A DNA stretch of 35,442 nt from Bacteroidota bacterium (GTDB taxonomy: Bacteria > Bacteroidota > Ignavibacteria > UBA10030 > UBA6906). The position numbers and the translations under genes were made by a program. The stretch is from positions 1 through 35,442 of the forward strand of contig JAUQWO010000032.1 of the NCBI GenBank assembly GCA_030835135.1, read 5' to 3'. Shown one piece after another: positions 10,108-30,526 of this stretch; positions within the stretch are counted from its first letter, which is position 1, and every line of letters begins with the position of its first letter. The notes beneath the pieces were generated by a model. It saw nothing but the letters and a program-made list of their open reading frames with translations, was not told the origin of the DNA and did not search any database.

Positions 10108-10569
10108 TCATTTGGCAACTCCAACAGAGTAGAACGTGGCTGTGCCATCCCCATACCCCATCCACTCCGCGACCGTTCTCCACGCACTCGATCCGGTGAG
10201 CAGATCATCGACCGAATCGATCCACTCAAACCTCTTTCCCTTCATACCCGACAGCACCATCCAGTGCTCTTGGTCGTCTATCAGGATGATGACAGGTGTG
10301 CCTCGCCTTAGATACCGCGTGATCAACTTCCGAGCTTTCGCCTCTCCGTGAACCATGTGGGGGAGGGGCTTGCACCCGCTCCTTCTGATGCCCCTCATGA
10401 TGGCATGTTCGTCAGTTCCCTCAACCATTGCTCTCAACCGCGACACTCCAGTCCTCCTGTGTGCTTCCCCGATCGAAATATGGATGCCAAGACAACCCAA
10501 AGCGTGAACGAGAGCGTGCTGGCCGCAGTGTCCTTCGATTGAGTACTGTCTGTGATACTGTCGTTTCAT
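10108..10569 (-). CDS. C39-like papain-fold cysteine protease
   Basis: A 153-residue protein with a compact papain-like triad: Cys15 in EGHCGQHAL, His102 in DQEHWMVLSG and Asp118 in EWIDSVDD. This is the pattern of peptidase C39 and related stand-alone cysteine peptidases, which cut after double-glycine leaders or other short peptides. There is no membrane segment or export signal. It lies downstream of the terminator of the minus-strand DNA-maintenance operon and so has separate transcription or is reached by read-through. Its substrate is unknown. Confidence 0.65.
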   Translation of the reverse strand: MKRQYHRQYSIEGHCGQHALVHALGCLGIHISIGEAHRRTGVSRLRAMVEGTDEHAIMRGIRRSGCKPLPHMVHGEAKARKLITRYLRRGTPVIILIDDQEHWMVLSGMKGKRFEWIDSVDDLLTGSSAWRTVAEWMGYGDGTATFYSVGVAK

Positions 10570-10590
10570 GATGTGCTCCTGCGACGTGAT

Positions 10591-10631
10591 AAGAAAAGAA
10601 AAAGCCCGACGGAAGACTCTCCGCCGGGCTT
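10591..10631 (-). terminator. Rho-independent terminator
   Basis: On the minus strand AAGCCCGGCGG pairs with CCGTCGGGCTT (one mismatch) around an 8-base loop and is followed by a run rich in T. It closes the minus-strand operon 10651-15430 ahead of the C39-like gene. Confidence 0.8.
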
Positions 10632-10650
10632 GTGAGAAAGTGGAATGCGC

Positions 10651-11142
10651 TCAGCTGCGCGCACGCTGAATGAAGATGGTGAGCGCGATCGACCTGATCG
10701 AATCGACATCCCACTGCACAGTGTTCACGGCCTTCGTCGCTTCGATGGCATCCCTGAGCGACTGTTCCATGATGTCCCGGAACCCATCATCCGGGACTTC
10801 GGTCGGCATAACACCAGGCTGAGAAGCCGGAACTACCGCTTTCGACACGACCTCGAAGTCCATTCGGGCTGTGACCTTCTTGCCGTTCTGAACCGCTGTC
10901 TTGGAAATGCGGAATTCATCACCGGCCTTGAGTCCTGCTTCCACGATCTTCTGATGCAGGTCGCCGGACGTGAAGAATGCCTTCTCGATGCCTTCATGGG
11001 CCACACTGTACAGATAGTACGCCCCAAAGGAGTTTTCCCCTGAATAGGGCTTGTCTTTGGTGAGCTTGAGCGTTGCCGACTCATTAAGAGCCAGTTCAAG
11101 CTTCGGTTTGTTCTGAGTCTGTGTCCCGTTCCCGTTCGCCAT
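10651..11142 (-). CDS. Unknown protein of the DNA-maintenance module
   Basis: A 163-residue soluble protein. The N-terminal tail (ANGNGTQTQNKPKLEL) is polar. A beta-rich domain (about 18-100) contains FGAYYLYSVAHEGIEKAFFTSG and GDEFRISKTAVQNGKK, a pattern reminiscent of OB-like single-strand binding folds, followed by a Pro-rich linker and a helical C-terminus. I cannot assign it to a family. It overlaps the Gam-like gene by 47 bases and is the last gene before the terminator, so it is probably made with the DNA-repair proteins upstream. Confidence 0.6.
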   Translation of the reverse strand: MANGNGTQTQNKPKLELALNESATLKLTKDKPYSGENSFGAYYLYSVAHEGIEKAFFTSGDLHQKIVEAGLKAGDEFRISKTAVQNGKKVTARMDFEVVSKAVVPASQPGVMPTEVPDDGFRDIMEQSLRDAIEATKAVNTVQWDVDSIRSIALTIFIQRARS

Positions 11143-11662
11143 CTGTCTCTCCTTTGATTGAGTATGAGAACTTGGTTTCCGCAGGGAAATACTCCACCCC
11201 TGGCGGTATGTCTCCAGTTGCCTTGATGCGGTTCAAGATCGCTTGGTTGTCCGGTGTAATCGATTCGGGCACTGACCGGACGAGACCGAGCTTTCCAGCG
11301 ACTTTCAAGAACGCTTCCATTTGAACCACACTCACTTTGTCTCTGCCTTTTCTCATTTTGAGGGTTCCGCGCGGTAGCCGAATAGTCTTCTCGCCGCTGG
11401 ACCGTGCAAACGCTTCGAGATTGTGCAGGAGCCATGAGCGTTGTTTGTCTAGGCGACTGAGTTCGTTCGAGCGGTAATCTTCAAGTAGCCGGACCTCCTT
11501 GTCGACCAGGTCATTCGCGTCAGACATCCGATCCTCGAGAACCGCCACCGCAGCGAGGAGCTGATCGGCTCGTAATCGATCCATCTCGATCTTGGTTTCT
11601 TGGTCAGCCAGTTCGGATTCCCGGAGGAGTTCTGCTATGAAGTCGATTCTTTCGGTCATCAT
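11096..11662 (-). CDS. Mu Gam-like DNA-end-binding protein
   Basis: A 188-residue protein with a helical coiled N-terminal half (about 1-85), then KTIRLPRGTLKMRKGRDKV and a C-terminal globular part ending FSYSIKGET. This matches the host-nuclease-inhibitor Gam family of phage Mu and related elements, homologous to Ku, which binds double-strand ends and shields them from exonucleases. It is encoded next to an ATP-dependent ligase and a RadC-like protein. Start at ATG 11662 after GGAGG; the start overlaps the stop of the small membrane peptide upstream. Confidence 0.75.
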   Translation of the reverse strand: MMTERIDFIAELLRESELADQETKIEMDRLRADQLLAAVAVLEDRMSDANDLVDKEVRLLEDYRSNELSRLDKQRSWLLHNLEAFARSSGEKTIRLPRGTLKMRKGRDKVSVVQMEAFLKVAGKLGLVRSVPESITPDNQAILNRIKATGDIPPGVEYFPAETKFSYSIKGETDGERERDTDSEQTEA

Positions 11663-11748
11663 TTCCTCCTTGGTCCAAAGATCGAGCCCAGCACGCCGAG
11701 TACAGCTTCTGCTACCATGAGAACGATCGTGATTGTTTTCCTTGTCAT
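11659..11748 (-). CDS. Small single-helix membrane peptide
   Basis: A 29-residue frame beginning MTRKTITIVLMVAEAVLGVL and ending GSIFGPRRK: one hydrophobic helix with basic ends. It starts at ATG 11748 after TAGGAG, contains GGAGG near its end for the next gene and its stop overlaps the ATG of the Gam-like gene, the arrangement of a translated, coupled small gene. Function unknown; the size and form fit a phage- or plasmid-type membrane peptide. Confidence 0.5.
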   Translation of the reverse strand: MTRKTITIVLMVAEAVLGVLGSIFGPRRK

Positions 11749-11769
11749 ATGGATGTGTCTCCTAAGTGA

Positions 11770-12225
11770 TTAGATCATGCCGCGTTCTGCGAGGGAGGTA
11801 TAGCTGTTCTCCCCGATGATGATATGGTCGTGGACTGGGATTCCTATAGTCTTCCCGGATTCCACGAGCTGTTTGGTGATCTCGAGGTCCTCGGCACTCG
11901 GTTCAGGGTTGCCGCTGGGATGGTTGTGTGCAACGATGATTGATGCAGCCGTTGCGACTATCGCACCACGAAACACCTCTCTCGGGTGAACAAGGCTGCA
12001 GTTGAGTGTGCCCTCCGTGACCACCTCAAAACCAATCACCTTGTTGCTCGCATTCAGCCAAATTACCAAGAACCGTTCCCTGACCTGACCCGTGAAGATG
12101 TCGGCGTAGGACCGAAACACATCCTCCGGCGAGCGGAGAATGACCGATCGCTGAGCTTTCAGACCGGGAAGGTCTTCGGATGATTCCTTGAACCGCCAGA
12201 CAACCGTCCGGAGGTGGTATTTCAT
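11770..12225 (-). CDS. RadC-like JAB-domain protein
   Basis: A 151-residue protein with the JAB/MPN metal-binding motif AHNHPSGNPEPSAED: H100, H102 and D113 are the expected zinc ligands. It corresponds to the C-terminal domain of RadC without the N-terminal helix-hairpin-helix region. Such short forms are frequent on plasmids, phages and genomic islands, where their biochemical role is still unclear despite the old DNA-repair name. It lies 26 bases after the ligase gene in the same operon. Confidence 0.85.
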   Translation of the reverse strand: MKYHLRTVVWRFKESSEDLPGLKAQRSVILRSPEDVFRSYADIFTGQVRERFLVIWLNASNKVIGFEVVTEGTLNCSLVHPREVFRGAIVATAASIIVAHNHPSGNPEPSAEDLEITKQLVESGKTIGIPVHDHIIIGENSYTSLAERGMI

Positions 12226-12251
12226 TTGCTATTCCTCAATTGTGAGTGGTT

Positions 12252-13439
12252 CTATTGTTCGCCTTGATACCAGATACAGTCCTGTGGATGCTTATCCGCC
12301 CTCATCGAGACGAACCGAGGATGCCGTATCGCACCGGACTTGAGCCGTTCCATGCCTTGGATCAGAACGACATTGCCGACGAACGCTTCGGGATTGCGAC
12401 CCATCTGCTTCCGGATTCTGTCGGTCATCCCGGATGCCTGGCCGAGTTCGGTCAGGTTTCCATCGACATATTGACCGAACACAACTGCTCCGATTGTTTC
12501 ATTGTACTTGCCTTTCCCTCCCGTAAATCCCATCACAACGCAGTCGAACGTCGATGACTTCTTGGCTTTGTACCAGTTGTTCGCCGGTCTTCCGCCTTGA
12601 ACGTATATCTCGTCCAGACGCTTGAGCATGATGCCCTCACCTCCACTGGCGAGCACCGATTCATATAGGCGTCGCTTATCGGCACTGGTTCTTGCCCACG
12701 GAAGGAAATGGATGAACTCCGAGTGTAATTGTCGCTGGAGGGTCACAAGGTGACCCAGCCGTTCTTCCAGCGTCAAAACACCCAGATCCCGGTCACCAAG
12801 TTTGAGGATGTCGAACACGAACAGCTGAACTGTGGTGCTATCGCCGTTCCCATTCTTCCGGTGTACCGTACCCGATAGAGTTGCGGAATCGATACCAGGA
12901 GCAAGGATCTCGCAGTCCAGAATGGTGCCGGAAAGGTCTGGAAATGTGAGCCGTGAGAGATGGGGAAGGGCAGAGGTTTTCTCGAGCGGTCTACTTGGAT
13001 CCTCGACTCCCGCTGAGCGAGAGAATATGCGAAGTCCGGTTCGGGTGATGTGGACGATAGCCCTCATTCCGTCCAACTTCTCTTGGGCGATATAGCGGGG
13101 ATCATCCAGAAGTGCCTGCAAATGAGCTTCATCCTTCACTCCCTGAGCACTCATCGGCCAGATCGTGGGGAGATTGTTCTTTTTGTTTTGAGCCGGGGCC
13201 GGAGAGATCGCTCCACCGGACCCAACGATGATGTACCCCCGCTTTTGCTTTTCGAGCTGTTTCTTCTGCATCTCCGCCAGTGCTTCCTGCTCGTTGTCGC
13301 CGTCGTAGATCAGCGCTTTCTTGGGAGCCTGACCGATGGCACCGTAGAGACCTTCCACAGTAAACCGTTCGCTGCCCCGGGAGAGATGCAGCTCATAGTA
13401 CTTGTTGTGCCCTCCGCTCGTGCATTCAAGCCGAATCAT
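12252..13439 (-). CDS. ATP-dependent DNA ligase with N-terminal WGR-like domain
   Basis: A 395-residue protein. Residues 1-75 resemble a WGR domain (YYELHLSRGSERFTVEGLYG). The nucleotidyltransferase domain has motif I EKLDGMR with the adenylated Lys at 121, motif III near FSRSAG (139-144), LDCEIL (E177), motif IV SGGEGIMLK (E268) and motif V WYKAKK (291, 293). An OB domain follows (about 295-380). Start at ATG 13439 after AAAGGAGGAGG. Ligases of this size serve phages and repair pathways; next to a Gam/Ku-like gene it could complete an end-joining unit, which is inference. Confidence 0.85.
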   Translation of the reverse strand: MIRLECTSGGHNKYYELHLSRGSERFTVEGLYGAIGQAPKKALIYDGDNEQEALAEMQKKQLEKQKRGYIIVGSGGAISPAPAQNKKNNLPTIWPMSAQGVKDEAHLQALLDDPRYIAQEKLDGMRAIVHITRTGLRIFSRSAGVEDPSRPLEKTSALPHLSRLTFPDLSGTILDCEILAPGIDSATLSGTVHRKNGNGDSTTVQLFVFDILKLGDRDLGVLTLEERLGHLVTLQRQLHSEFIHFLPWARTSADKRRLYESVLASGGEGIMLKRLDEIYVQGGRPANNWYKAKKSSTFDCVVMGFTGGKGKYNETIGAVVFGQYVDGNLTELGQASGMTDRIRKQMGRNPEAFVGNVVLIQGMERLKSGAIRHPRFVSMRADKHPQDCIWYQGEQ

Positions 13440-13460
13440 GCCTCCTCCTTTGAAATGGAA

Positions 13461-13489
13461 AGGCCGGCCCCATCTCTGGAAGCCGGCCT
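13461..13489 (-). promoter_or_regulatory. Hairpin between the DUF932 and ligase genes
   Basis: Perfect 8-bp stem AGGCCGGC/GCCGGCCT with a 13-base loop, just ahead of the ligase ribosome-binding site. On the minus strand it is followed by only three T, so it is a weak terminator or attenuator or an RNA processing/stability element that lowers ligase expression relative to DUF932. Confidence 0.5.
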
Positions 13490-13511
13490 CAGGTGAATGT
13501 ATAGTGAAGGA

Positions 13512-14477
13512 TCAGTTGTTGAGCCATGTACGAGCCAGATCGAATGCGCGGAGCTTGAGCGATTCGCCCGAGCCGAACCAGACCGACTTCAGTCGCTTCT
13601 CCGGGATGGTCGAATTCTGCACGTGATCGGTGTATTCGGTTACGGCATTGTATGCGCCCCACAGGCTTCCACGTGCCATATCTGACCCCGCGCCGGTCTC
13701 GTTCAGTTCGAGGATCTTCGACCGGATATTCTCGGTCCGGGTGTTGAATGAAGCGTCCTCATTGTCCGGGACCAACTCTTTCACGAACTGGATCAGCTGT
13801 CGTTCGGTGATTCGCTTGGCATTCATCCTGTTAAAGATGAGGTCCAGCTCCTGGTACAGAGAGTTCGTCAAGCCGAGAAGCTTGTGAGCCTGGGCAAGCC
13901 GATCCACAGCACTGGGAGTATGCCGGATGCGAACCTCCTGCTCTGCTCCATCCAATGCGGCTGAGAGGGTGTTGTTGCAGACGACCCGGATGGGAGTAAG
14001 CTTTGCACGGACCATCGACTTCCCGTCATGGGAATTGGTCAGAAGCAGGTATTTCTTGACCTCATCGTTCTTCCCGATCTTGATATATCCGGGGAGTTTT
14101 GCCAAAACCCATATTGTTTCTCCCTGACCAAGAACCCCTGCTGTTTCGAAGATTGCCTCTCCAGAGCCTACTAGGCTGTCGAAGAATGCGAACGCTTCCT
14201 CATTCTGCAGGACGGTGTACCGATCTCCGACCAGACCCAGCACCGATTGAGTATCCCGACGCACAGTCGCAAATGACCTCGGCACCTCGACCAGCGTGCG
14301 GCCATTCGGTTTACAGAACAGTGGCTTCTTGTCGACCTGATAATCAAGCCCTGCCGCCTGCATTGCTTCAGCTGAGGTCGCCAGCTGTGGAAGACGAACA
14401 CCGAGACGATGCCATGGGCTTTCTCCCACGTACATCATGGAGGTCTTCCCATTTGTGACGTTAAGGTTGTGTGCCAT
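13512..14477 (-). CDS. DUF932 phage/plasmid-like protein (TIGR03299 type)
   Basis: A 321-residue protein starting at ATG 14477 (MAHNLNVTNGKTSMMYVGES). The frame remains open further upstream, but that extension only mirrors the clamp gene. The central region contains ATVRRDTQSVLGLVGDRYTV, ETIWVLAKLPGYI, YLLLTNSHDGKS and IRVVCNNTLSAAL, the landmarks of the DUF932/TIGR03299 family found on phages, plasmids and integrative elements. Its biochemical function is not established. It follows the clamp gene by two bases. Confidence 0.85.
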   Translation of the reverse strand: MAHNLNVTNGKTSMMYVGESPWHRLGVRLPQLATSAEAMQAAGLDYQVDKKPLFCKPNGRTLVEVPRSFATVRRDTQSVLGLVGDRYTVLQNEEAFAFFDSLVGSGEAIFETAGVLGQGETIWVLAKLPGYIKIGKNDEVKKYLLLTNSHDGKSMVRAKLTPIRVVCNNTLSAALDGAEQEVRIRHTPSAVDRLAQAHKLLGLTNSLYQELDLIFNRMNAKRITERQLIQFVKELVPDNEDASFNTRTENIRSKILELNETGAGSDMARGSLWGAYNAVTEYTDHVQNSTIPEKRLKSVWFGSGESLKLRAFDLARTWLNN

Positions 14478-14479
14478 AG

Positions 14480-15001
14480 CTACTGTACCTTTCTGTGTTT
14501 GAGTTGAATGGGCATGATCAAACCGACTGTCCCGGGATCGCCCTTGAGAGGTTTCACTAGGACTGCTTCGGTTGGTTGTCCGCACATCAGCACGAGTTCC
14601 TCTGAACCCAATGAATCCGCAAGGTTCTTCAGGTATGCGGCATTGATACCGATCTTGTAGTACTTTCCCTGATGAGCTTTCCGAAGCAAGTTGAATACTC
14701 TCGGAGGATTGTGTTTCTCTGGGCGCTGCATCGTCGTACCGTCCGGAAGAATCTGCGCACCGTTGAGACCGATCCTGATGGAATCGAGCCCTTTGCCAGA
14801 CACCTTTCGAGCGTGTTTCAGTGCATCCGGTGACATCCATCCTGGTTCGTCTTCACCGTCTGTCGTGACCGGAACGATGGCGAGAATCCTACCGTCTGTG
14901 GCGAGTGCGTGACGTTTGCTCACGAACACGTTTTGCAGGCTTTCTCGGTTACTGTCGGTGGATACCGCCCTTTCGATCTTGTAGCGTTTGTCGATTTGCA
15001 C
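14480..15001 (-). CDS. Short DnaN-like sliding-clamp homologue
   Basis: A 173-residue protein starting at GTG 15001 after GAGAGGCAG. Two stretches recall the beta clamp: VSKRHALATDGRILAIVPV near the N-terminus and, at the C-terminus, LVLMCGQPTEAVLVKPLKG followed by GLIMPIQL, which has the form of the clamp's final strand region. A normal DnaN has three domains and about 370 residues; this has about one and a half. It may assemble with more subunits or act as a partner or competitor of the host clamp. The similarity is to motifs I recognise, so homology needs profile confirmation. Confidence 0.55.
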   Translation of the reverse strand: MQIDKRYKIERAVSTDSNRESLQNVFVSKRHALATDGRILAIVPVTTDGEDEPGWMSPDALKHARKVSGKGLDSIRIGLNGAQILPDGTTMQRPEKHNPPRVFNLLRKAHQGKYYKIGINAAYLKNLADSLGSEELVLMCGQPTEAVLVKPLKGDPGTVGLIMPIQLKHRKVQ

Positions 15002-19634: not shown

Positions 19635-21410
19635 TTGACTTTCGACAGTGTCCTGAAACTTGTTGCGATAGCGCTCGCATTGTACGCCCTCCTTCCACAG
19701 TCAAAGCGCCTGGAATTTAAACTCAGGTTGTCTTGGTACCATGTGCTTTCCATGCTGGCAATCGGCGTTGTTGTGCACATTCTCCTGTTCTACTCTTCGC
19801 TTGTCTCTTGCGAAGTCGTCCCGCAATTCCCTTCCGACCAATTCAAAATGAAGCCGCAGGAGGTCGCCTATCTTGTGGTCATTTCGTCATCTCTCCTTTT
19901 CTGGGTCTGGTTTCACTTTAGTCCTATTCCCCGTAGGAAAGTCAAGGACTTGTCGCTGTTGATACAGCAATTGCTCGCAGAGAGCAGATATGGAGAGGCC
20001 GCCCTTCTTCTTGACGAGAATCTGCACAGGATTCACCGAATCTCACTCCTTGATTTTCGGATGGATAGACTTCGCAGTCGTCTTGTGAGAGATGTGCGGT
20101 TCCCTCCGTTGGAGAAGCCAGAAATAGTCCGTTTGCTGGAGGCAGGTGGAAATGATGATTCGCTGGAGAGTGTGGTTAGGTCTCGAAAAGGGTTGAGTAG
20201 ATTGATCCGTGTCCCACTGCACAGACTTGAGCAGTTTGTGGGACAACTGCTGCCTTCACACGAATTGTCGAAGAGAGCCGCAGAAGATGTCTCTCGTGTC
20301 ACGCTGCTTAATCAGGAGTTATTGGACTACATATCGAAGTCGAAGCCGTATTTTCTACTCAAGGTGCTTGAAACAGATCCAATTGAAAAAGAGAGGTTTG
20401 TAAATGGAGTGATGGCCCGCCTTCTCCGCTCACCGAGGAGCGTTTTGTCGTTCGAATTAGAACAAAGCCAAGACATAAGCACAGAACATCGGTACGCGAT
20501 AAGAGAGTCGAATCGTTTGGTGTATTATTTCTTCTCAGATGTCACTAGGACGGAGAAACTCGGGGTGTGGAAGCCTGTAGGAGATGAGATGCTTAGGCAC
20601 CTCAAACGGCCAGGCCGTGGGGGGGCAGCAGACGATGAATACAACCATGCATTGGGAGATTTTAGCGATATGGGTCGCTGGGAATCTCCCTTGTTCGTGG
20701 GTATCCGTTTCTTCGACATAATGGTCTCTGAGGCAATCTATCAGAAAGTCGAATGGCATATGTGGTTGATGTATTTCCAGTTTGTTCTGAAGGGCATATG
20801 CCAGAACTACGCACCTCACCCAGATAGTAAGGACTCATATTGGGAAACCCCCACGAAATACAGCTATCTGATATATGAGATTCTCGACGTGCTGCAACAG
20901 TGGATTCTCTGTGTGCGACACGTTCCGAAAGACCAAAAGAACATGAGCATTTCATCGGATAGACTTGACCATGAAAACAGTAGCATAGTGAAAACAAGCA
21001 TTATGGTTCTCGGCGAGGGCTTGATGACCATATTCGAAACACAGTCAATTCCGAAAGACTTCTTCGCAAAGCGAGTTCAAGGAGTGTGCCATACGTATTT
21101 TGAATTGGTCAGAAGCGGTCGCATCTCACCCTTCGGGGAACTGCTTCTGAAATCAATTATGCGGGGTGGGTACCAACACAATAGCCCATCGGAAGGTTAC
21201 CAAGCAGAGCTCATAAAGGCATTCATCGACAACGATAACGAGCCGCAGAGGCACCAGGACGTAGAGGTAGGTTTGGCTTTTCTCGTGAATGAATTCGTCT
21301 CTGGGTTCGGTGAGGTGTGCCTGAAGAATCGACTTCGATGTGAATGTACTCCCAAAAGTATCACGCTCATTTCCGAAAGTAGGGGGCGCAGGTACAGCGT
21401 TACCCGCTGA
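19635..21410 (+). CDS. Large unknown membrane protein
   Basis: A 591-residue protein with a probable TTG start at 19635. Three membrane helices fall in the first 95 residues (about 6-21, 35-58 and 77-95); the remaining 490 residues are soluble, Leu/Arg/Glu-rich and probably helical. I recognise no enzymatic motif, no Walker sequence and no nuclease signature. The combination of an N-terminal membrane anchor and a large cytoplasmic region, next to a potassium channel and a CARF-regulated operon, is compatible with a membrane effector or sensor, but there is no direct evidence for either. Confidence 0.7.
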   Translation: MTFDSVLKLVAIALALYALLPQSKRLEFKLRLSWYHVLSMLAIGVVVHILLFYSSLVSCEVVPQFPSDQFKMKPQEVAYLVVISSSLLFWVWFHFSPIPRRKVKDLSLLIQQLLAESRYGEAALLLDENLHRIHRISLLDFRMDRLRSRLVRDVRFPPLEKPEIVRLLEAGGNDDSLESVVRSRKGLSRLIRVPLHRLEQFVGQLLPSHELSKRAAEDVSRVTLLNQELLDYISKSKPYFLLKVLETDPIEKERFVNGVMARLLRSPRSVLSFELEQSQDISTEHRYAIRESNRLVYYFFSDVTRTEKLGVWKPVGDEMLRHLKRPGRGGAADDEYNHALGDFSDMGRWESPLFVGIRFFDIMVSEAIYQKVEWHMWLMYFQFVLKGICQNYAPHPDSKDSYWETPTKYSYLIYEILDVLQQWILCVRHVPKDQKNMSISSDRLDHENSSIVKTSIMVLGEGLMTIFETQSIPKDFFAKRVQGVCHTYFELVRSGRISPFGELLLKSIMRGGYQHNSPSEGYQAELIKAFIDNDNEPQRHQDVEVGLAFLVNEFVSGFGEVCLKNRLRCECTPKSITLISESRGRRYSVTR

Positions 21411-21641
21411 AACCGCTCGTGCCGTTGCTTAGGCATTACCAAAAGTAGGCACTGTGTGAGAAGGCGCACGCTGAATTGGGGCTCTCGGTCCAGGAGCATT
21501 CTTCCCGTGAGTGAATGAACCAAGAGGTCGAGTCATCGCAAGAGTTGCAGCTTCTACGTAATGTTGGTACCGAGAATATCGGCTCTACGGTTCTGTATCA
21601 CTGGGCTCCCCCAGAAGCGCCCGAATATAGGTCTCTGGAAT

Positions 21642-22490
21642 ATGTCTCTGCCTCAGATCGTGATAATCGGCCACGTGGGATACGATGTAGTACTCATCGA
21701 TGGCTTTGAACGCTCGCGGCATATTGCGGGCGCAGCATTCTATTCAGCCGTCGGAGCTGCCTCGTTAATATCGCGGGTTGGGGTAGTCAGTCGGTTGCCG
21801 CGGAATGAAATCACAATCATCGAGGCCCTGAAAACACTCAAGGTGGATCTCGGTGGCATCACGCTCGTGTCCGACGGCAAAACTCCAGAGTTCATTCTCC
21901 GTTACACAGGCTCCGACTTCGAAGATATGGACGCAACGAGGGGAGTGACAATATCTCTCGGCTGTGCTGAGTTCCTAGCTCCGGAGGACATTCCGCCATC
22001 CTTCCTGGATTGTTCGTTCGTCCACATTGCAACTGCGAATCCGACCAACCAAATTCAATGGATCAAATACCTTCGGGCCAAGTCTCGGAGTATTCAAACC
22101 ATTTCGATGGACACAGACCAGTTGTTTCTAAGGAGTGATCCCTCCCTCGTATTGAAAGCGTTCATGCTATCGGACATTGCCTTCATTAACCACCGCGAGG
22201 AGAAAGTGTTGAATCTCCTTAGAGCCCTGAAGAAGCACGTAATTGTCAAGCGAGGAGGGGAGGGAGCAGAGCTGTGGTTTGGGCGCGAACTTATCACCAG
22301 GGTGCCTGCGAAGGGGGTGAGAGTGGTTGACACGACAGGTTCAGGAGATATCCTCGCAGGGGCATTCATGGCTCAAATCGCAGGGGGGAGCGACTATGTG
22401 CAAGCGCTAGCCACCGCGGTCAATATTGCATCGGAATCCGTCCGAGAGTACGGGGTGAACCATTTGTTCAAGAATTCGATCAGTCAATAG
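21642..22490 (+). CDS. PfkB/ribokinase-family kinase
   Basis: A 282-residue protein from ATG 21642. It has the family's Rossmann-like core, VKRGGEGAEL (about 202-211) and the catalytic anion-hole motif VVDTTGSGDILAGAF (about 228-242) with the base Asp236. The N-terminal Gly-Gly motif is replaced by HIAGAAFYSAVGAA (27-40). The family phosphorylates sugars and nucleosides at a hydroxyl with ATP; the substrate cannot be read from the sequence. It is the first gene of the operon with the radical SAM and CARF-sigma-54 genes (23-base gap), so a nucleoside-type substrate is an attractive inference. Confidence 0.85.
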   Translation: MSLPQIVIIGHVGYDVVLIDGFERSRHIAGAAFYSAVGAASLISRVGVVSRLPRNEITIIEALKTLKVDLGGITLVSDGKTPEFILRYTGSDFEDMDATRGVTISLGCAEFLAPEDIPPSFLDCSFVHIATANPTNQIQWIKYLRAKSRSIQTISMDTDQLFLRSDPSLVLKAFMLSDIAFINHREEKVLNLLRALKKHVIVKRGGEGAELWFGRELITRVPAKGVRVVDTTGSGDILAGAFMAQIAGGSDYVQALATAVNIASESVREYGVNHLFKNSISQ

Positions 22491-22512: not shown

Positions 22513-23547
22513 ATGAAAAGCCTGAACCCCGACCAGATGGCCATCCGCATCTCCATAACTGGGCGATGCCAGATGCATTGCTACTACTGTACTCGAGAAA
22601 ATCACTCGAGCAATCAACTCGAATACTCGCAGTTGGCCGGCATAATAGAAGCCTTGGCTCAAGGCGGTTTTAGGAATGTCCATTGGACTGGGGGTGAACC
22701 CCTTTGCCGACCGGACCTCGAGATGATCGTCGCGCACGCTCGAAGGGCGGGCTTTTCGTACCAGAAACTCACGACTAATGGAGCTGGGCTCGCGAAGCGT
22801 GCAGACTCTCTTTGCCTCGCCGGGATCAATCGGGTAAATGTCAGCCTTGATTCTTTAGACCGAGATCAATTCAACGGTCTGACCGGCTCAGCGCTATACG
22901 ATCATGTTCTTGCCGGGATTGAGGAGGCTCGACGACGATTTCGGTGCGTCAAACTCAATGTTTGTGTAACCCGACAGAACGTAAGTGAGTTGGGACGGTT
23001 CATCTCTTTTGCGGAACAATTAGGGGATGGGATCGTAGTCAAGTTTCTTGAATTGGTGCCCTGTCAGAATCACTTCGAACACGATCGTGAGAGTTTTTAC
23101 CAAGAGTTCGTCTCGATCCAAGAAATCATGTCGACGCTATACGGCACTTTCGGGCAGATAGTTCCGAGTTCGTCCCCTGAGCATTCACGGCAGAAATGCC
23201 AATATTTCAAGATAGTCACGAACAACGTCGTTTTCGGTCTGAACCCCAATGAATCCATCGAATACGCATGTCAACGAGAACAGTGTGCCGATTTTCGTAT
23301 GAGTCCTACGGGATATCTCTCAGACTGCTCGGTCAACCTGACAAATGCAATCTTCCTTCCGGATTTGAATTTTGACGATCAGAAGACGGCCATCCAAGAG
23401 CTTATACACAAGAAACGGACGCGCACGACGGAAGAGTGGGAAGTCTATCGGCATAAGCAACAACACTACTCGTTCTGGAGATTTGGGGAGATGGTGCCTG
23501 AGCTTATTCCGTTCACGAAGAGCGCTTGCCAAGAAAACGGCATGTAG
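22513..23547 (+). CDS. MoaA-like radical SAM enzyme
   Basis: A 344-residue protein. The SAM-binding cluster motif is C19-X3-C23-X2-C26 (CQMHCYYC), with GGEP at 60-63 and SLDS at 111-114. A second cysteine set, C253-X4-C258-X13-C272 (ACQREQC...LSDC), lies where MoaA has C-X2-C-X13-C for its auxiliary cluster. MoaA rearranges GTP in molybdopterin synthesis. Here there is no other moa gene, the auxiliary spacing differs and the MoaA C-terminal tail is not evident, so a different purine-like substrate is likely. It is encoded between the PfkB kinase and the CARF-sigma-54 activator. Confidence 0.85.
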   Translation: MKSLNPDQMAIRISITGRCQMHCYYCTRENHSSNQLEYSQLAGIIEALAQGGFRNVHWTGGEPLCRPDLEMIVAHARRAGFSYQKLTTNGAGLAKRADSLCLAGINRVNVSLDSLDRDQFNGLTGSALYDHVLAGIEEARRRFRCVKLNVCVTRQNVSELGRFISFAEQLGDGIVVKFLELVPCQNHFEHDRESFYQEFVSIQEIMSTLYGTFGQIVPSSSPEHSRQKCQYFKIVTNNVVFGLNPNESIEYACQREQCADFRMSPTGYLSDCSVNLTNAIFLPDLNFDDQKTAIQELIHKKRTRTTEEWEVYRHKQQHYSFWRFGEMVPELIPFTKSACQENGM

Positions 23548-23573: not shown

Positions 23574-25334
23574 ATGAGCCGGAATATCCTTCTTGCGGTC
23601 GTTGGCACAAAGTCCTGGGTCGTATCCCAGGCATTGTATTGTTTCCGCGTTGAACAGAACATCCCCATTACTGAAATCATCATAATAACCACAAAAGTGG
23701 GCGAGGATGTTCTGAGGAAGGGCAATGTGGAAGTAGGGCCGGCCAATCTATTAGGGAAGGGAGGCATCCTTCAGAGGTTCTGCCACGAGTATGGGATTGC
23801 ACCAATTGAACCCAAGATCGTGTTGATGAAGGATCAAAAAGGGGTTGAACTCAAGGATACAAGAACCATCGACGAGTGCCAATCGGGAGCGTTTTCGATC
23901 TTGGATACGATCCGCAACTGCGGATTATCGGACGATGACAATGTCTATTGCATTTTCGCCGGTGGGAGAAGACTGATGGTAAGTTATCTCATGTCAGCGC
24001 TTACAATAGCCGGTAGAGCTAACGATCGGCTCTACTATGTGTTGATCACACCAGAGGAAGCAAGCCACGTTCGGGACTTCTATTACAAACCGAAGGATCC
24101 TGCCACCATCGCCTTGCCCGGAGGCATCAAGAGCACAGCAGACGTGTCCATGCAAATGATAGAGATTCCATTCCCGAGGCTTGGGGAAAAGTACGCTTCA
24201 GTGATTAGGGGGGATAAGAGCTATCGTGCGGTAGTGCTCCATATTCAAGATTTCATTTCCTCTGAGCCCAAACCTGCGGTCTCCTCCGATAGTAGTGCTC
24301 GAAAGCACCAGGAAATCATCGGTGAGGACCCTAAGTGGAAGGAGGCGCTGAAAGAAATTGATCGATTTGCTAAGGCAAAGATATCCCCGATTTTGATCCA
24401 TGGAGAGACTGGCACTGGGAAGGAATTGTGTGCACAGTACTATCACAGTTGCTTGTCCAACTATCTTCAGAAAGAGATGCCATTCGTCGCGATTGATATG
24501 AACGGAATTCCCCAGGAGATGAGTGAGTCGGAACTTTTCGGACACGAGAAAGGGGGATTTACAGGCGCAACGCACACCAGAGTAGGACTACTTAAGTCTG
24601 CAAATGGCGGGGTCGCTTTTTTGGATGAGCTGGGCAAGGCTTCAGCTAGCCTGCAAACCAAGTTGCTCCGGGTACTGGAGTATAAGGAGATGCGTCCTGT
24701 CGGGAGCGATAGACTGATGAAGATCGATGTCGCATTCGTATTTGCGATGAAAGAAGACATTGATCAACTCCTGGATGATAATTTGATGACTGAGGACTTC
24801 TTCTATAGGGTCTCGATGGCTCGAGTGCTGGTTCCTCCCTTGCGCGAACGACTATCGGACATCCCCTTGTTGGCTAGACATTTCATTGAACGGAGTTGTC
24901 GAACCCAGAATAAGGAGACGATCATCCTAAGTGATCAGTTGCTTGACCTGCTCTTGCATCACACATGGCCAGGCAATACGCGAGTATTGAAGCAACGTCT
25001 TGAATGGCTCGTTACTCAGAGCAATGGTAAGAAAGTGTCGGACGAACTGTTGGTGAAGTTGAAAACCCGACTGGAGGAAGATCGGGTAAGGATGATGCGA
25101 CGAGAACGAATGAGAATCAACGGGGGGACGAATGACGCTTTGCTCTCTACTCCAGGAGCTAATGACGGTGGGTCAACTTTCAAAGAGCGACAGAGTGCCA
25201 TTGAAAGAGATGTGCTCGAAAGGAAATACCATGAGTGCGGGGAGAATGCCGCGCGGACAGCCCGGGCTCTGGGAATGAAACCTTCTACTCTTAAAGACAA
25301 ACTCAAGGGACACGGTATAATCCATCAGCGATAG
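23574..25334 (+). CDS. CARF (Cas_NE0113-like) - sigma-54 activator fusion
   Basis: A 586-residue protein; ATG 23574 is chosen because the N-terminal strand (NILLAVVGTKSWVV) starts there. Residues 1-180 match the Cas_NE0113 CARF pattern: AVVGTKSWVVSQAL (8-21) and FAGGRRLMVSYLMSALTIAG (128-147) followed by DRLYYVLITP. Residues 250-480 are a sigma-54 AAA+ domain: Walker A GETGTGKE (277-284), sigma-contact loop GGFTGA (327-332; usually GAFTGA), Walker B VAFLDE (347-352) and Arg fingers near FYRVSMARVLVPPLRER. A Fis-type HTH follows (about 555-585). RtcR has the same logic with a different CARF domain. The expected ligand is a cyclic oligonucleotide or RNA end; this is inference. Confidence 0.85.
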   Translation: MSRNILLAVVGTKSWVVSQALYCFRVEQNIPITEIIIITTKVGEDVLRKGNVEVGPANLLGKGGILQRFCHEYGIAPIEPKIVLMKDQKGVELKDTRTIDECQSGAFSILDTIRNCGLSDDDNVYCIFAGGRRLMVSYLMSALTIAGRANDRLYYVLITPEEASHVRDFYYKPKDPATIALPGGIKSTADVSMQMIEIPFPRLGEKYASVIRGDKSYRAVVLHIQDFISSEPKPAVSSDSSARKHQEIIGEDPKWKEALKEIDRFAKAKISPILIHGETGTGKELCAQYYHSCLSNYLQKEMPFVAIDMNGIPQEMSESELFGHEKGGFTGATHTRVGLLKSANGGVAFLDELGKASASLQTKLLRVLEYKEMRPVGSDRLMKIDVAFVFAMKEDIDQLLDDNLMTEDFFYRVSMARVLVPPLRERLSDIPLLARHFIERSCRTQNKETIILSDQLLDLLLHHTWPGNTRVLKQRLEWLVTQSNGKKVSDELLVKLKTRLEEDRVRMMRRERMRINGGTNDALLSTPGANDGGSTFKERQSAIERDVLERKYHECGENAARTARALGMKPSTLKDKLKGHGIIHQR

Positions 25335-25350
25335 CCGAAGGCACGGCGGA

Positions 25351-25370
25351 ATCGCCGGATTTCCGGCGAT
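25351..25370 (+). promoter_or_regulatory. Small perfect hairpin downstream of the activator
   Basis: ATCGCCGG-ATTT-CCGGCGAT, just after the CARF-sigma-54 stop and before the terminator. It may protect the 3' end of the operon transcript. Confidence 0.4.
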
Positions 25371-25394
25371 GAAACCAACGTTTGATTCCTTCAA

Positions 25395-25425
25395 CCCCTC
25401 AGATCGAAAGATTTGAGGGGTTTTT
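25395..25425 (+). terminator. Rho-independent terminator of the kinase-radical SAM-activator operon
   Basis: CCCCTCAGAT pairs with ATTTGAGGGG around CGAAAG, then TTTTT. It isolates the operon from the following gene. Confidence 0.9.
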
Positions 25426-25429
25426 CATT

Positions 25430-25446
25430 TTGGCAAGGTTCCTGCC
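25430..25446 (+). promoter_or_regulatory. Sigma-54 (-24/-12) promoter
   Basis: TTGGCAAGGTTCCTGCC: the invariant GG (25432-25433) and GC (25444-25445) are separated by exactly 10 bases, and the -24 element TTGGCA is consensus; the -12 element CTGC differs from TTGC at one base. It lies five bases after the terminator and about 65 bases before the ATG of 25511, next to the only sigma-54 activator gene in the window. GG-N10-GC alone is common by chance, so the extended match and the context carry the call. Confidence 0.55.
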
Positions 25447-25510: not shown

Positions 25511-25912
25511 ATGTCCGGCAAGCAAAAAATATCGAGAAGGAGTACAACGCGGCAAGGGCAAAACACACCGTTCGCCTTCTCTGCCAGGCTTGTCGGTGGT
25601 CGATTGATCGAGCAGATGCCGGTGGATGAATCAAAGGTCGATCAGATCGAGCTGAACGGGCGGGTCTTTGCAGTAGAGGGGACGGTCAGGGAGGTGGTGA
25701 GGATTGCGCGAGTCAAGTATAGCGAGGAACATTATAAAGCGGTGATCGCACTCATTAACCAGGGCTACCAGAAGAACGCCGCCGTTGAGCAGGTCGCAGT
25801 CAAGTACGGCTTCGCATCTGTGGATGGGTTCTACAAGCAGTGCGATAAGTACTTGGACACGAAAGATGGAAGCGTAGTTCCATTCGGTGGAACCGTACTT
25901 CCTTCACCTTGA
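25511..25912 (+). CDS. Unknown protein, possible output of the CARF-sigma-54 activator
   Basis: A 133-residue soluble protein with a basic, disordered N-terminus (SGKQKISRRSTTRQGQ), a beta-rich middle (about 22-60) and a helical part with YSEEHYKAVIALINQGYQKN then FASVDGFYKQCDKYL, which looks HTH-like. No membrane segment. The ribosome-binding site is weak. It sits behind the sigma-54-type promoter. I do not recognise a family. Confidence 0.55.
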   Translation: MSGKQKISRRSTTRQGQNTPFAFSARLVGGRLIEQMPVDESKVDQIELNGRVFAVEGTVREVVRIARVKYSEEHYKAVIALINQGYQKNAAVEQVAVKYGFASVDGFYKQCDKYLDTKDGSVVPFGGTVLPSP

Positions 25913-28539: not shown

Positions 28540-28739
28540 CAGCATCGATGGACCAAAGTGGCACCATCAAAACGAAGAGACTTATGCCAGAGTACACCTT
28601 CCTGACCAGGGAAGGTTCGACATTTACCGGACCGGAGCAGGATGATCTTGTCCGACTCGTCGCTGCCATGATCCTACGGGATTTGAGGTATAAGAAGAAA
28701 ATGACGATAATACCCAACCAGGAGGACGAACATGGATGA
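28536..28739 (+). CDS. Small unknown protein upstream of the recombinase
   Basis: A 67-residue protein with MPEYTFLTREGSTFTGPEQD then LVRLVAAMILRDLRYKKK. Its start overlaps the previous stop and its end overlaps the recombinase ATG by eight bases. A Lys-rich C-terminal segment and small size would fit a recombination directionality factor, but no motif proves it. Confidence 0.5.
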   Translation: MTASMDQSGTIKTKRLMPEYTFLTREGSTFTGPEQDDLVRLVAAMILRDLRYKKKMTIIPNQEDEHG

Positions 28740-30486
28740 GAGACTTGCCGCAGTGGGATATGTTCGGTGTTCCACCGATCAACAGGAAGACAGCCCGGAT
28801 CAGCAGAAGCGTGCCATAACTGAGTTTGCAGCTCGGCAGGGATACGACATCGTCGAGTGGTACGTGGATTTTGGCAAGTCCGGCACCACGTTTGACCAGC
28901 GTCCCGAGTTCGAACGCTTGCGAATTGATGTAGAGAGACGTCCCTTGTTCCACACAGTGATCTGCTACGATGAATCCCGATGGGGACGTGCGATCGATGC
29001 GGAAGAGAACACGTTCTGGCGAGTTCATTTCCGTCGACACGGAGTTGACGTGATCCTGGTGAAGACATCCATAGACCCAGGTCATGAATTCGCCCCGATG
29101 ATGAAGGCGTTTGAAGGGGTACAGGCCTCACAGTTTAGCAAAAAACTCTCCGAGCTCACCTATCGTGGGGCTAGCAGCAATGGAGTCTTTTCGAGTGGTG
29201 GCACGGCTCCGTACGGCTATAGGAGGGTTGCTGTGAGTATCAAGACCGGATTACACAGGGATCTCGCGCACGGAGAGTGGTGTGTCAAGAAACAGGAAAA
29301 GGTGATCTGGGTAATCGGTGACGAGCGGGAGGTCGCGACAGTTCGGTTCATCTTCACTCAGAGAGCACGTGGTACAGCATTCATTGTGATTGCCAGCGAG
29401 TTGAATGACCGTGGGGTGCCGTGCGCACAACGTGGCAGGTGGAGAAACCTTGACAGGAAGTGGAGTGTAGGTACGATAAAATCAATTGTCGAGAACCCGG
29501 CATATTACGGTGCTCGAGTCTACAACCGCTTCTCCAGCAGTAAAATCCGTGCCCAGCTGGAACGCTGGGACACCAAGAGCGGTGTCGCCCATCCACAATG
29601 GCGTATGGATGCTGATAAGTGGATCATTGTCGAGAGTGCCCATGAGTCTATTGTCGGCAAGGAGTTGTGGCAGGAGGCGAATGCCAGGTACGCGAAGCGT
29701 ACGAACTATCGACCCAAGGCGTTCGTTCCCTATCTCCTGTCAGGAGTTGTGTTCTGTGCCCGTTGCGGGTTTGCTTTCCAGGGACAATCGACAAAGAACC
29801 GAGGGAAGGAGTATTTCCGGTATATATGTGGAGGTTATCATGCCAAGCGAGTGTGTGAGTGGGCAGCAGTAGGGCGGGATATCCTCGAATCATTTGCTAT
29901 TGATGCGGTTACGGATGTATTTACGAATGATAGATTCATCGAAGGAGTTCGGGTAGAGTTGAATCGTCTTATGGAGATCGAGCCGGGTGTCGCCGAAACA
30001 CAACGGATAGCCTCCACCCACCGGTTGGGAGAGATCGAAACTGCCCTCGGGAACATCACGCGAGCTATTGAGGGCGGTGCTCCGGTTGAAATGTTTACCG
30101 GCCGGATCAGCGAGTTGTTGGCGGAAAAAGAGAAGGTCCAACAACAGCGTCAGCAGGCAACCATCGTCACAGCAGCAGGATCATCCGTTGATAAGATGTC
30201 ATTCGCCGTTTCGGATTTCTGTGCGTCTTTTCGGCAGGCGTTCGATCGCGCGCCTATTCAGGAGCGAAAGGAGCTGCTGCGGAGAACAATTTGGCGGATC
30301 AAAGTTGATGGTGGCGCCCGGACAGCAGAGTGTTATGTCCGTCGCTTTCCAGTGGTTGGAGGGCTCCAGGACCAGATGATTCGGGACCTGGAAAAACAGG
30401 CAACGGCAACCGATTATCGATTGCCGTTGTGCAATGAGTGGGTGCCCGGAACAGGACTTGAACCTGCACGACCTCGCGGCCACTAG
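28732..30486 (+). CDS. Large serine recombinase (integrase)
   Basis: A 584-residue protein. The resolvase-type catalytic domain (1-145) has VGYVRCSTDQQ with the nucleophile Ser14, and the 'recombinase' domain follows (about 155-290). A zinc ribbon (FCARCGFAF ... YICGGYHAKRVC, about 342-385) and a coiled coil complete a large serine integrase. Start at ATG 28732 after AGGAGG. The last residues, WVPGTGLEPARPRGH, are encoded by the antisense strand of tRNA-Leu, so the natural C-terminus is probably altered by integration. Serine integrases insert at short att sites without a long target duplication. Confidence 0.9.
   Translation: MDERLAAVGYVRCSTDQQEDSPDQQKRAITEFAARQGYDIVEWYVDFGKSGTTFDQRPEFERLRIDVERRPLFHTVICYDESRWGRAIDAEENTFWRVHFRRHGVDVILVKTSIDPGHEFAPMMKAFEGVQASQFSKKLSELTYRGASSNGVFSSGGTAPYGYRRVAVSIKTGLHRDLAHGEWCVKKQEKVIWVIGDEREVATVRFIFTQRARGTAFIVIASELNDRGVPCAQRGRWRNLDRKWSVGTIKSIVENPAYYGARVYNRFSSSKIRAQLERWDTKSGVAHPQWRMDADKWIIVESAHESIVGKELWQEANARYAKRTNYRPKAFVPYLLSGVVFCARCGFAFQGQSTKNRGKEYFRYICGGYHAKRVCEWAAVGRDILESFAIDAVTDVFTNDRFIEGVRVELNRLMEIEPGVAETQRIASTHRLGEIETALGNITRAIEGGAPVEMFTGRISELLAEKEKVQQQRQQATIVTAAGSSVDKMSFAVSDFCASFRQAFDRAPIQERKELLRRTIWRIKVDGGARTAECYVRRFPVVGGLQDQMIRDLEKQATATDYRLPLCNEWVPGTGLEPARPRGH
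30392..30429 (-). terminator. Terminator of tRNA-Leu
   Basis: Perfect 9-bp stem CAACGGCAA/TTGCCGTTG with an 11-base loop; on the minus strand it is followed by CCTGTTTTT. It lies 14 bases beyond the tRNA 3' end, inside the recombinase reading frame. Confidence 0.75.
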
Positions 30487-30526
30487 CTCCTGAAGCTAGC
30501 GCGTCTGCCAATTTCGCCATCCGGGC
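30443..30526 (-). tRNA. tRNA-Leu(CAG)
   Basis: On the minus strand GCCCGGA (5') pairs with TCCGGGC (3'). The anticodon stem is CTAGC/GCTAG around loop TTCAGGA, giving anticodon CAG. The variable arm is long (class II, as in tRNA-Leu) and the T-loop is GTTCAAGTC. The 84-base gene has discriminator A and no encoded CCA. It flanks the recombinase and is the probable integration locus of the island. Confidence 0.95.

Follow-up and report, generated by a model that had tools for sequence, protein, structure and literature searches.

To our knowledge, few CARF proteins are known to act on transcription, namely the winged-helix protein Csa3 and RtcR. Cyclic oligoadenylate is made by Cas10. In vitro, cyclic oligoadenylates failed to activate RtcR (PMC9650030), and RtcR-like proteins with the order CARF, AAA and helix-turn-helix (HTH) that lie outside the rtc operon, near restriction-modification genes, were described in 2014 (PMC4012209). 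A fused type I-B/III-A CRISPR locus was reported in Kryptonia in 2016, in a paper with no mention of sigma, NtrC or AAA in its main text (PMC4737851). Here we describe the CARF5-sigma54 regulator of that locus together with its predicted upstream activating sequence (UAS) and promoter, and a relative of this regulator in contig JAUQWO010000032.1. The whole 35,442 nt stretch of the contig that was analyzed is called the window, and coordinates are window positions unless a locus label is given. The gene in question (23574..25334, + strand) starts with ATG at 23574, and its stop codon ends at 25334. It encodes 586 amino acids comprising a CARF domain of the NE0113 family, a sigma-54 interaction AAA+ domain and a Fis-like HTH. 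We consider it fairly likely that the protein is a CARF-gated bacterial enhancer-binding protein acting on an adjacent UAS and promoter.

The first-pass annotation had read this gene as a fusion of an NE0113 CARF domain with a sigma-54 AAA+ activator, and searches with Pfam, TIGR02584 and PADLOC bear this out. The CARF domain takes up residues 1 to ~230 (23574..24263, + strand). PF09623 (Cas_NE0113) matches residues 16-211 with 77.8 bits against a cut-off of 23, TIGR02584 matches residues 5-205 with 96.3 bits (99.1 for the domain alone) against a cut-off of 80.65, and the CARF5 model of PADLOC matches the N-terminal domain with E = 5e-41. The AAA+ domain and its lid (residues 248-493; 24315..25052, + strand) match PF00158 (E = 3.6e-49) and PF25601 (AAA_lid_14). 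Walker A is GETGTGKE, Walker B is GGVAFLDE, and the sigma-54 contact loop is GGFTGA, a variant of GAFTGA. The protein therefore has the AAA+ domain, Walker motifs and GAFTGA-type loop of a sigma-54 enhancer-binding protein. The sequence blocks VVGTKSWVV, AGGRRLM and GGFTGA, which the annotation had singled out, are found at residues 9-17, from 129, and at 327-332. The HTH (residues 544-582; 25203..25319, + strand) is presumed to bind DNA, and aligns with the HTH_8 of the Kryptonia proteins. RtcR does carry a different CARF family, as had been stated. The Pfam scan of the activator gave no match to PF06956 (RtcR), and the control, E. coli RtcR, scored 286 bits. RtcR is indeed a well-known analog of the activator, but it is not the only one, given the RtcR-like proteins of 2014 and the RtcR_PspF1 and RtcR_PspF2 models of PADLOC. 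RtcR_PspF is the best PADLOC match for the full-length activator (E = 6e-71), by way of the AAA part; the alignments start at model positions 160 of 481 and 163 of 468, and those of the fused relatives at position 128 or later.

We predicted the structure of residues 1-240 with AlphaFold, using an alignment of 55 sequences. The model (pLDDT 92.4, pTM 0.89) has the Rossmann fold of a CARF domain. Among the matches listed, the top structural match is the ring nuclease Sso2081 (Z = 15.5, 2.2 Å over 148 residues), and the CARF domain of Cad1 was also found, with Z = 15. Both were reached in the PDB by sequence as well, using the alignment profile. By profile and by fold this is a CARF domain of the NE0113 family. 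We do not class it as a ring nuclease; the NE0113 ring-nuclease motifs G-x-T-P-Q..T-E-T (motif I) and G-G-R-K-T (motif II) are altered in the window protein.

We scanned 150 relatives, 391 genomes of the class, 395 genomes of the phylum and a collection of 84,980 species genomes for NE0113 proteins and fusions. The NE0113 proteins found are mostly 360-400 amino acids long without an AAA domain, and many are from the same bacterial class. Besides the window copy, fusions to a sigma-54 AAA+ domain were found in all these scans only in one Kryptonia genus and in genome G200; this count is a lower bound, because a single degenerate pattern was used for the 84,980 genomes. The 395 genomes of the phylum gave no additional fused copy, nor did viral contigs or phage and plasmid records, where plasmids had only NE0113 proteins annotated csm6. 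The fused loci are L012, L013, L016/L104, L017/L105 and L106 in Kryptonia, and L071/L107 in G200. L016 and L104 are identical in sequence and were counted as one Kryptonium thompsonii locus, and L017 and L105 were merged likewise. The class of the window's genome includes Kryptonium.

All the fused relatives lie within type III CRISPR loci with Cas10, and the Cas10 proteins retain GGDD. The Kryptonia copies adjoin type III-A genes (cas6, cas10, csm2-5 and the gene of a CARF7 protein), and a type I-B operon (cas8b, cas7, cas5, cas3, cas4 and cas1) lies downstream, in each case as far as the contigs reach. Of these genes, csm2-5, cas4 and cas1 were named by reading the sequences and the others by PADLOC profiles. 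The G200 locus contains cas10, cmr1, cmr3, cmr4, cmr6, cas6, RT-cas1 and an array of 26 repeats. One of its accessory genes (L071:5005-6174) encodes a protein that matches a Lon C-terminal protease and, weakly, Csx3. The gene immediately preceding CARF5-sigma54 in this type III-B locus encodes a fusion of an NE0113 CARF domain to RelA/SpoT (L071:6188-7501; PF09623 E = 2e-22, PF04607 E = 4e-17), a candidate CARF-controlled (p)ppGpp-type synthetase.

The loci compared have a common layout, in which a palindromic site soon after the stop codon of the activator is followed by a -24/-12 site. In the window the overlapping palindromes CGGCGGAATCGCCGGATTTCCGGCGAT (25344..25370, + strand), with perfect arms of 9 bp, come directly after the stop codon and form a putative enhancer (UAS). 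Their core is CCG-N6-CGG (25355-25366, + strand), and only 2 of 957 window stretches are as good. A stem-loop resembling an intrinsic terminator, with a T-rich tail (25393..25430, + strand; stem 25393-25422), would close the activator transcript, and the putative -24/-12 sigma-54 promoter TGGCAAGGTTCCTGCC (25431..25446, + strand) follows. Measured from the center of the palindrome, the -24 G lies 71 bp away in the window and in L012, 70 bp in L016 and L106, 69 bp in L017 and 67.5 bp in L071. Across four Kryptonia loci 78% of the columns are invariant in the UAS and 63% in the promoter, against 15% in the linker and 19% in the DNA beyond. L013 has a strong promoter, TGGCACAGTTTTTGAA, and the -12 element of L012 is degraded. 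The window's genome has a sigma-54 gene (PF04552, E = 4e-55). The exact UAS core occurs once in this 4.9 Mb genome; there are further places with one or two mismatches, so wider targets are possible.

From these sequences we infer the following course of events. The NE0113 CARF domain would dimerize and bind a nucleotide-type ligand, which would license assembly of the AAA+ domain and hence the remodeling of sigma-54 RNA polymerase. The Fis-like tail would anchor the activator on the 25344-25370 palindromes, from where it would act on the promoter at 25431-25446 and give rise to a new transcript that starts with a gene of 133 codons (25511..25912, + strand). The product of that gene has no family match in the Pfam and phrog scans, and its predicted structure is of low confidence with a trihelical C-terminal part. 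Its homologs occur in mobile-element settings; in two genomes of the same order they have a tyrosine-recombinase-like gene and one resembling a transposase nearby.

In Kryptonia the corresponding promoter, at 9799-9814 in L016, precedes a single-span peptide of 46-49 amino acids, a DUF4258-like protein and the type I-B genes. The peptide is the first gene behind the promoter and has the sequence LPxPIILILxGxxML (L016:9926-10066, with equivalents in L017, L106 and L013); it was not found in L012. The window activator would share an ancestor with this lineage, whose version of the protein, together with the same enhancer and promoter, connects a type III-A operon with a type I-B cas operon. We tentatively suggest that cyclic oligoadenylate made by Cas10 acts in Kryptonia through CARF5-sigma54 to switch on the promoter of the membrane peptide and the I-B cas operon, and that a mobile element took up this switch, in which the arrangement of enhancer and promoter stayed the same while the sensor came to answer a different signal; we hold this as a possible scenario and lean somewhat against it as a whole.

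The trees are consistent with such an ancestor. In the CARF tree the window copy groups with the Kryptonia fusions (support 99/92), and the G200 fusion groups with unfused Ignavibacteriota proteins, apart from the other fusions. A constraint uniting all fusions was rejected (approximately unbiased test, p 0.006). On the CARF tree the fusion of NE0113 to sigma-54 thus seems to have occurred twice, both times separately from RtcR. In the AAA tree, which includes 17 further activators from the window's genome for comparison, the window and Kryptonia group with support 99/98 and G200 comes next (95/82). An AAA tree that included E. coli RtcR and three more long rows was unstable, and the final tree was rebuilt without them. 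Since the AAA tree unites all seven fusions, the AAA part may alternatively come from one source, with the CARF domain swapped, in place of two fusion events. The second, independent origin relative to RtcR that the first-pass annotation had put forward is supported by these comparisons, because the CARF family differs (PF09623 as opposed to PF06956) and the AAA part groups with the Kryptonia fusions and not with the activators of its own genome. The branches of the window copy are long in both trees.

The pocket of the window CARF domain differs from those of its relatives. Compared with 54 homologs, nine invariant or near-invariant positions are altered: T13K, P14S, Q15W, E19Q, T20A, S127I, K133R, T134L and H155Y. 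These lie at or near ring-nuclease motif I (T13-T20) and motif II (S127, K133 and T134), plus H155. By the same column counts G11, T39, T40, D95, G130-R132 and D151 are retained. The Kryptonia and G200 fusions retain all these positions, including those changed in the window. Mapped by motif position onto Sso2081, E19 corresponds to Glu17 and R132-K133 to Arg105-Lys106, and D95 to Asp75, the least certain of these. In Sso2081, Arg105 and Asp75 dominate the binding of cyclic tetra-adenylate (cA4), and motif I serves cleavage (PMC10018336). Reading the kept and lost positions against this biochemistry, the simplest interpretation is that ring cleavage has been lost and that the changed pocket, with its anchoring Arg and Asp, may possibly still bind a nucleotide.

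No match to the Cas10 palm (PF22335) or to Cas1 (PF01867) was found in the window's genome. As a separate observation, one E. coli genome scored above cut-off in the control search with PF22335, unexpectedly for a Cas10 model. Judged by Cas10 in the locus or genome, the Kryptonia and G200 copies would count as type III accessories and the window copy would not; it is an orphan, in a host genome without detectable Cas10 or Cas1. Its setting appears to be an integrative element. A large serine recombinase (28732..30486, + strand; PF00239, PF07508, PF13408; phrog_95 integrase) is the putative integrase, and its reading frame runs into a tRNA-Leu(CAG) (30441..30526, - strand), the presumed integration target. 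This tRNA-Leu is common to two genomes of the genus, and the relatives G001 and G002 share only the tRNA stretch. The activator appears to have moved into an integrative element whose host has no detectable Cas10, and its pocket has diverged. The window copy is probably a captured CRISPR-signaling activator with an altered pocket, and given the lack of detectable Cas10 and the diverged pocket its present ligand probably does not come from a resident CRISPR system.

The signal might nevertheless be the ancestral one. The window protein could still sense cyclic oligoadenylate from a type III system that is encoded on another element or present in cells carrying both, and trigger the response of its mobile element; the loss of the ring-nuclease motifs would then give a sensor that does not destroy its own signal. 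R132 and D95, positional equivalents of the two main cA4-binding residues of Sso2081, are kept and K133R preserves the charge, every fused relative adjoins type III genes, and the gene is in a mobile-element setting. Yet the genome has no Cas10 match, and the changes at E19, T13, T20 and H155 include the equivalent of the adenine-contacting Glu. We regard this explanation as unlikely.

The genes immediately upstream suggest a different source of ligand. A PfkB-family kinase (21561..22490, + strand; PF00294, E = 9e-18) and a MoaA-like radical SAM protein (22513..23547, + strand) are probable operon partners of the activator, with gaps of 22 bp between the two and 26 bp to the activator start. 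The radical SAM protein scores 170.7 bits with TIGR02666, under the cut-off of 284, and its nearest solved structure is MoaA 1tv7. We rejected an identity as prokaryotic viperin, for which the match (4e-17) is weaker than that to MoaA (4e-50). MoaA-type enzymes act on GTP, and PfkB-type kinases phosphorylate sugars and nucleosides. The ligand could therefore be a small nucleotide-derived metabolite made by these partners, so that the activator reports a pathway and not an infection. The tight spacing, the divergence of the pocket and the lack of Cas10 agree with this, but the kinase and radical SAM pair is not seen beside any other fused copy, and the two nearest relatives of the radical SAM protein have a different conserved gene setting with no adjacent kinase. 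This too seems improbable to us.

The changed positions and the long branch (2.09 in the CARF tree) could alternatively mean that the protein is a relic, a CRISPR-signaling activator that has been cut off from its signal and has constant or no activity as its CARF domain decays. That is rather doubtful, as the 586-codon frame and the AAA motifs are intact, the spacing of UAS and promoter is preserved, and the changes cluster in the ligand motifs whereas other invariant positions are kept. An ordinary RtcR or RtcR-like PspF-type regulator is very improbable indeed, for in spite of the same order of CARF, AAA and HTH and 29% identity to RtcR in the AAA part, PF06956 finds no match, the RtcR_PspF1/2 models cover the AAA part only, and neither rtcA nor rtcB turned up among those window proteins that were scanned.

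Several observations weigh against a captured, CARF-gated activator with its own enhancer and promoter. The score of the window promoter is good but not extreme, with 2 of 70,852 window positions as high and 0.34% of 160-nt stretches holding one as good, using a scoring matrix that we wrote to follow the published sigma-54 consensus. Between the window palindromes and the Kryptonia sites the CCG-N6-CGG core is common, but not the full sequence. The palindromes of L016, L013 and L106, taken alone, are no better than many stretches of their own locus, and that of L013 is less clear. Pfam support for the HTH of the activator is weak (PF02954, HTH_8, E = 0.025). The long branch of the window copy is compatible with a CARF domain that might be decaying. 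The lack of Cas10 was judged with one Pfam model in an assembly that is fragmented, though 100% complete. Lastly, no direct repeat of the tRNA-Leu end, which would mark the left end of the element, was found within the window.

Other genes of the window were noted in passing. Upstream of the kinase gene is a protein of 591 amino acids (19635-21410) with no Pfam match and similarity to phrog_13820 (E = 1e-46), whose function is not annotated. An AAA_13 protein at 7760-9928 matches PDC-S06 of PADLOC (E = 3e-242) and has weak similarity to PrrC; it is a candidate defense gene. At 10108-15001 (- strand) a WGR-linked ATP-dependent DNA ligase, a DUF932 protein and a Mu Gam-like protein form a cluster typical of mobile elements.

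To the first-pass annotation we add that the relatives lie in CRISPR loci, that a predicted enhancer and promoter adjoin the gene, and that its ring-nuclease motifs have eroded. The fused relatives, with their CRISPR loci and a predicted matching promoter just downstream, suggest that CRISPR alarm signals may activate genes in a way that is new. A CARF5-sigma54 protein that lies in a type III locus beside a predicted enhancer and promoter allows a direct test of whether a second messenger can open a sigma-54 promoter, which is otherwise tightly closed; in Kryptonia that promoter is so placed that it would recruit a type I system. The window's orphan copy is a natural experiment in what becomes of a CARF pocket when Cas10 has been lost.

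Among known systems, RtcR, the sigma-54 regulator of rtcBA RNA repair, resembles the window protein in having an N-terminal domain of the CARF superfamily, a sigma-54 AAA+ domain and a C-terminal HTH, and in the UAS and -24/-12 promoter next to its gene, which in the window are putative and read from sequence. Its CARF family is PF06956 where that of the window is PF09623/TIGR02584, and it lies divergently beside rtcBA, whereas the window activator is upstream of its putative target and collinear with it. The RtcR_PspF1/2 proteins (CARF_AAA_HTH in PADLOC) share the architecture, but their CARF part is unmatched by the window protein. Unfused NE0113/CARF5 proteins of ~360-400 amino acids, annotated as Csm6/Csx1-like, belong to the same CARF family; they have a short C-terminal region in place of the sigma-54 AAA+ domain, and keep the ring-nuclease motifs. 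Csa3 is a CARF transcription factor linking type III signaling to type I cas genes (PMC8844856, PMC8699464), much as we propose for Kryptonia, but it has a winged HTH and neither AAA+ ATPase nor sigma-54. In CalpL-CalpT-CalpS a cyclic oligoadenylate signal likewise leads to a transcriptional response through a sigma factor (PMC11229360); there the sigma factor is freed by proteolysis, and there is no CARF-fused sigma-54 activator. The published type I-B/III-A locus of Kryptonia (PMC4737851) is that of a relative, in which the CARF5-sigma54 regulator lies between the two operons.
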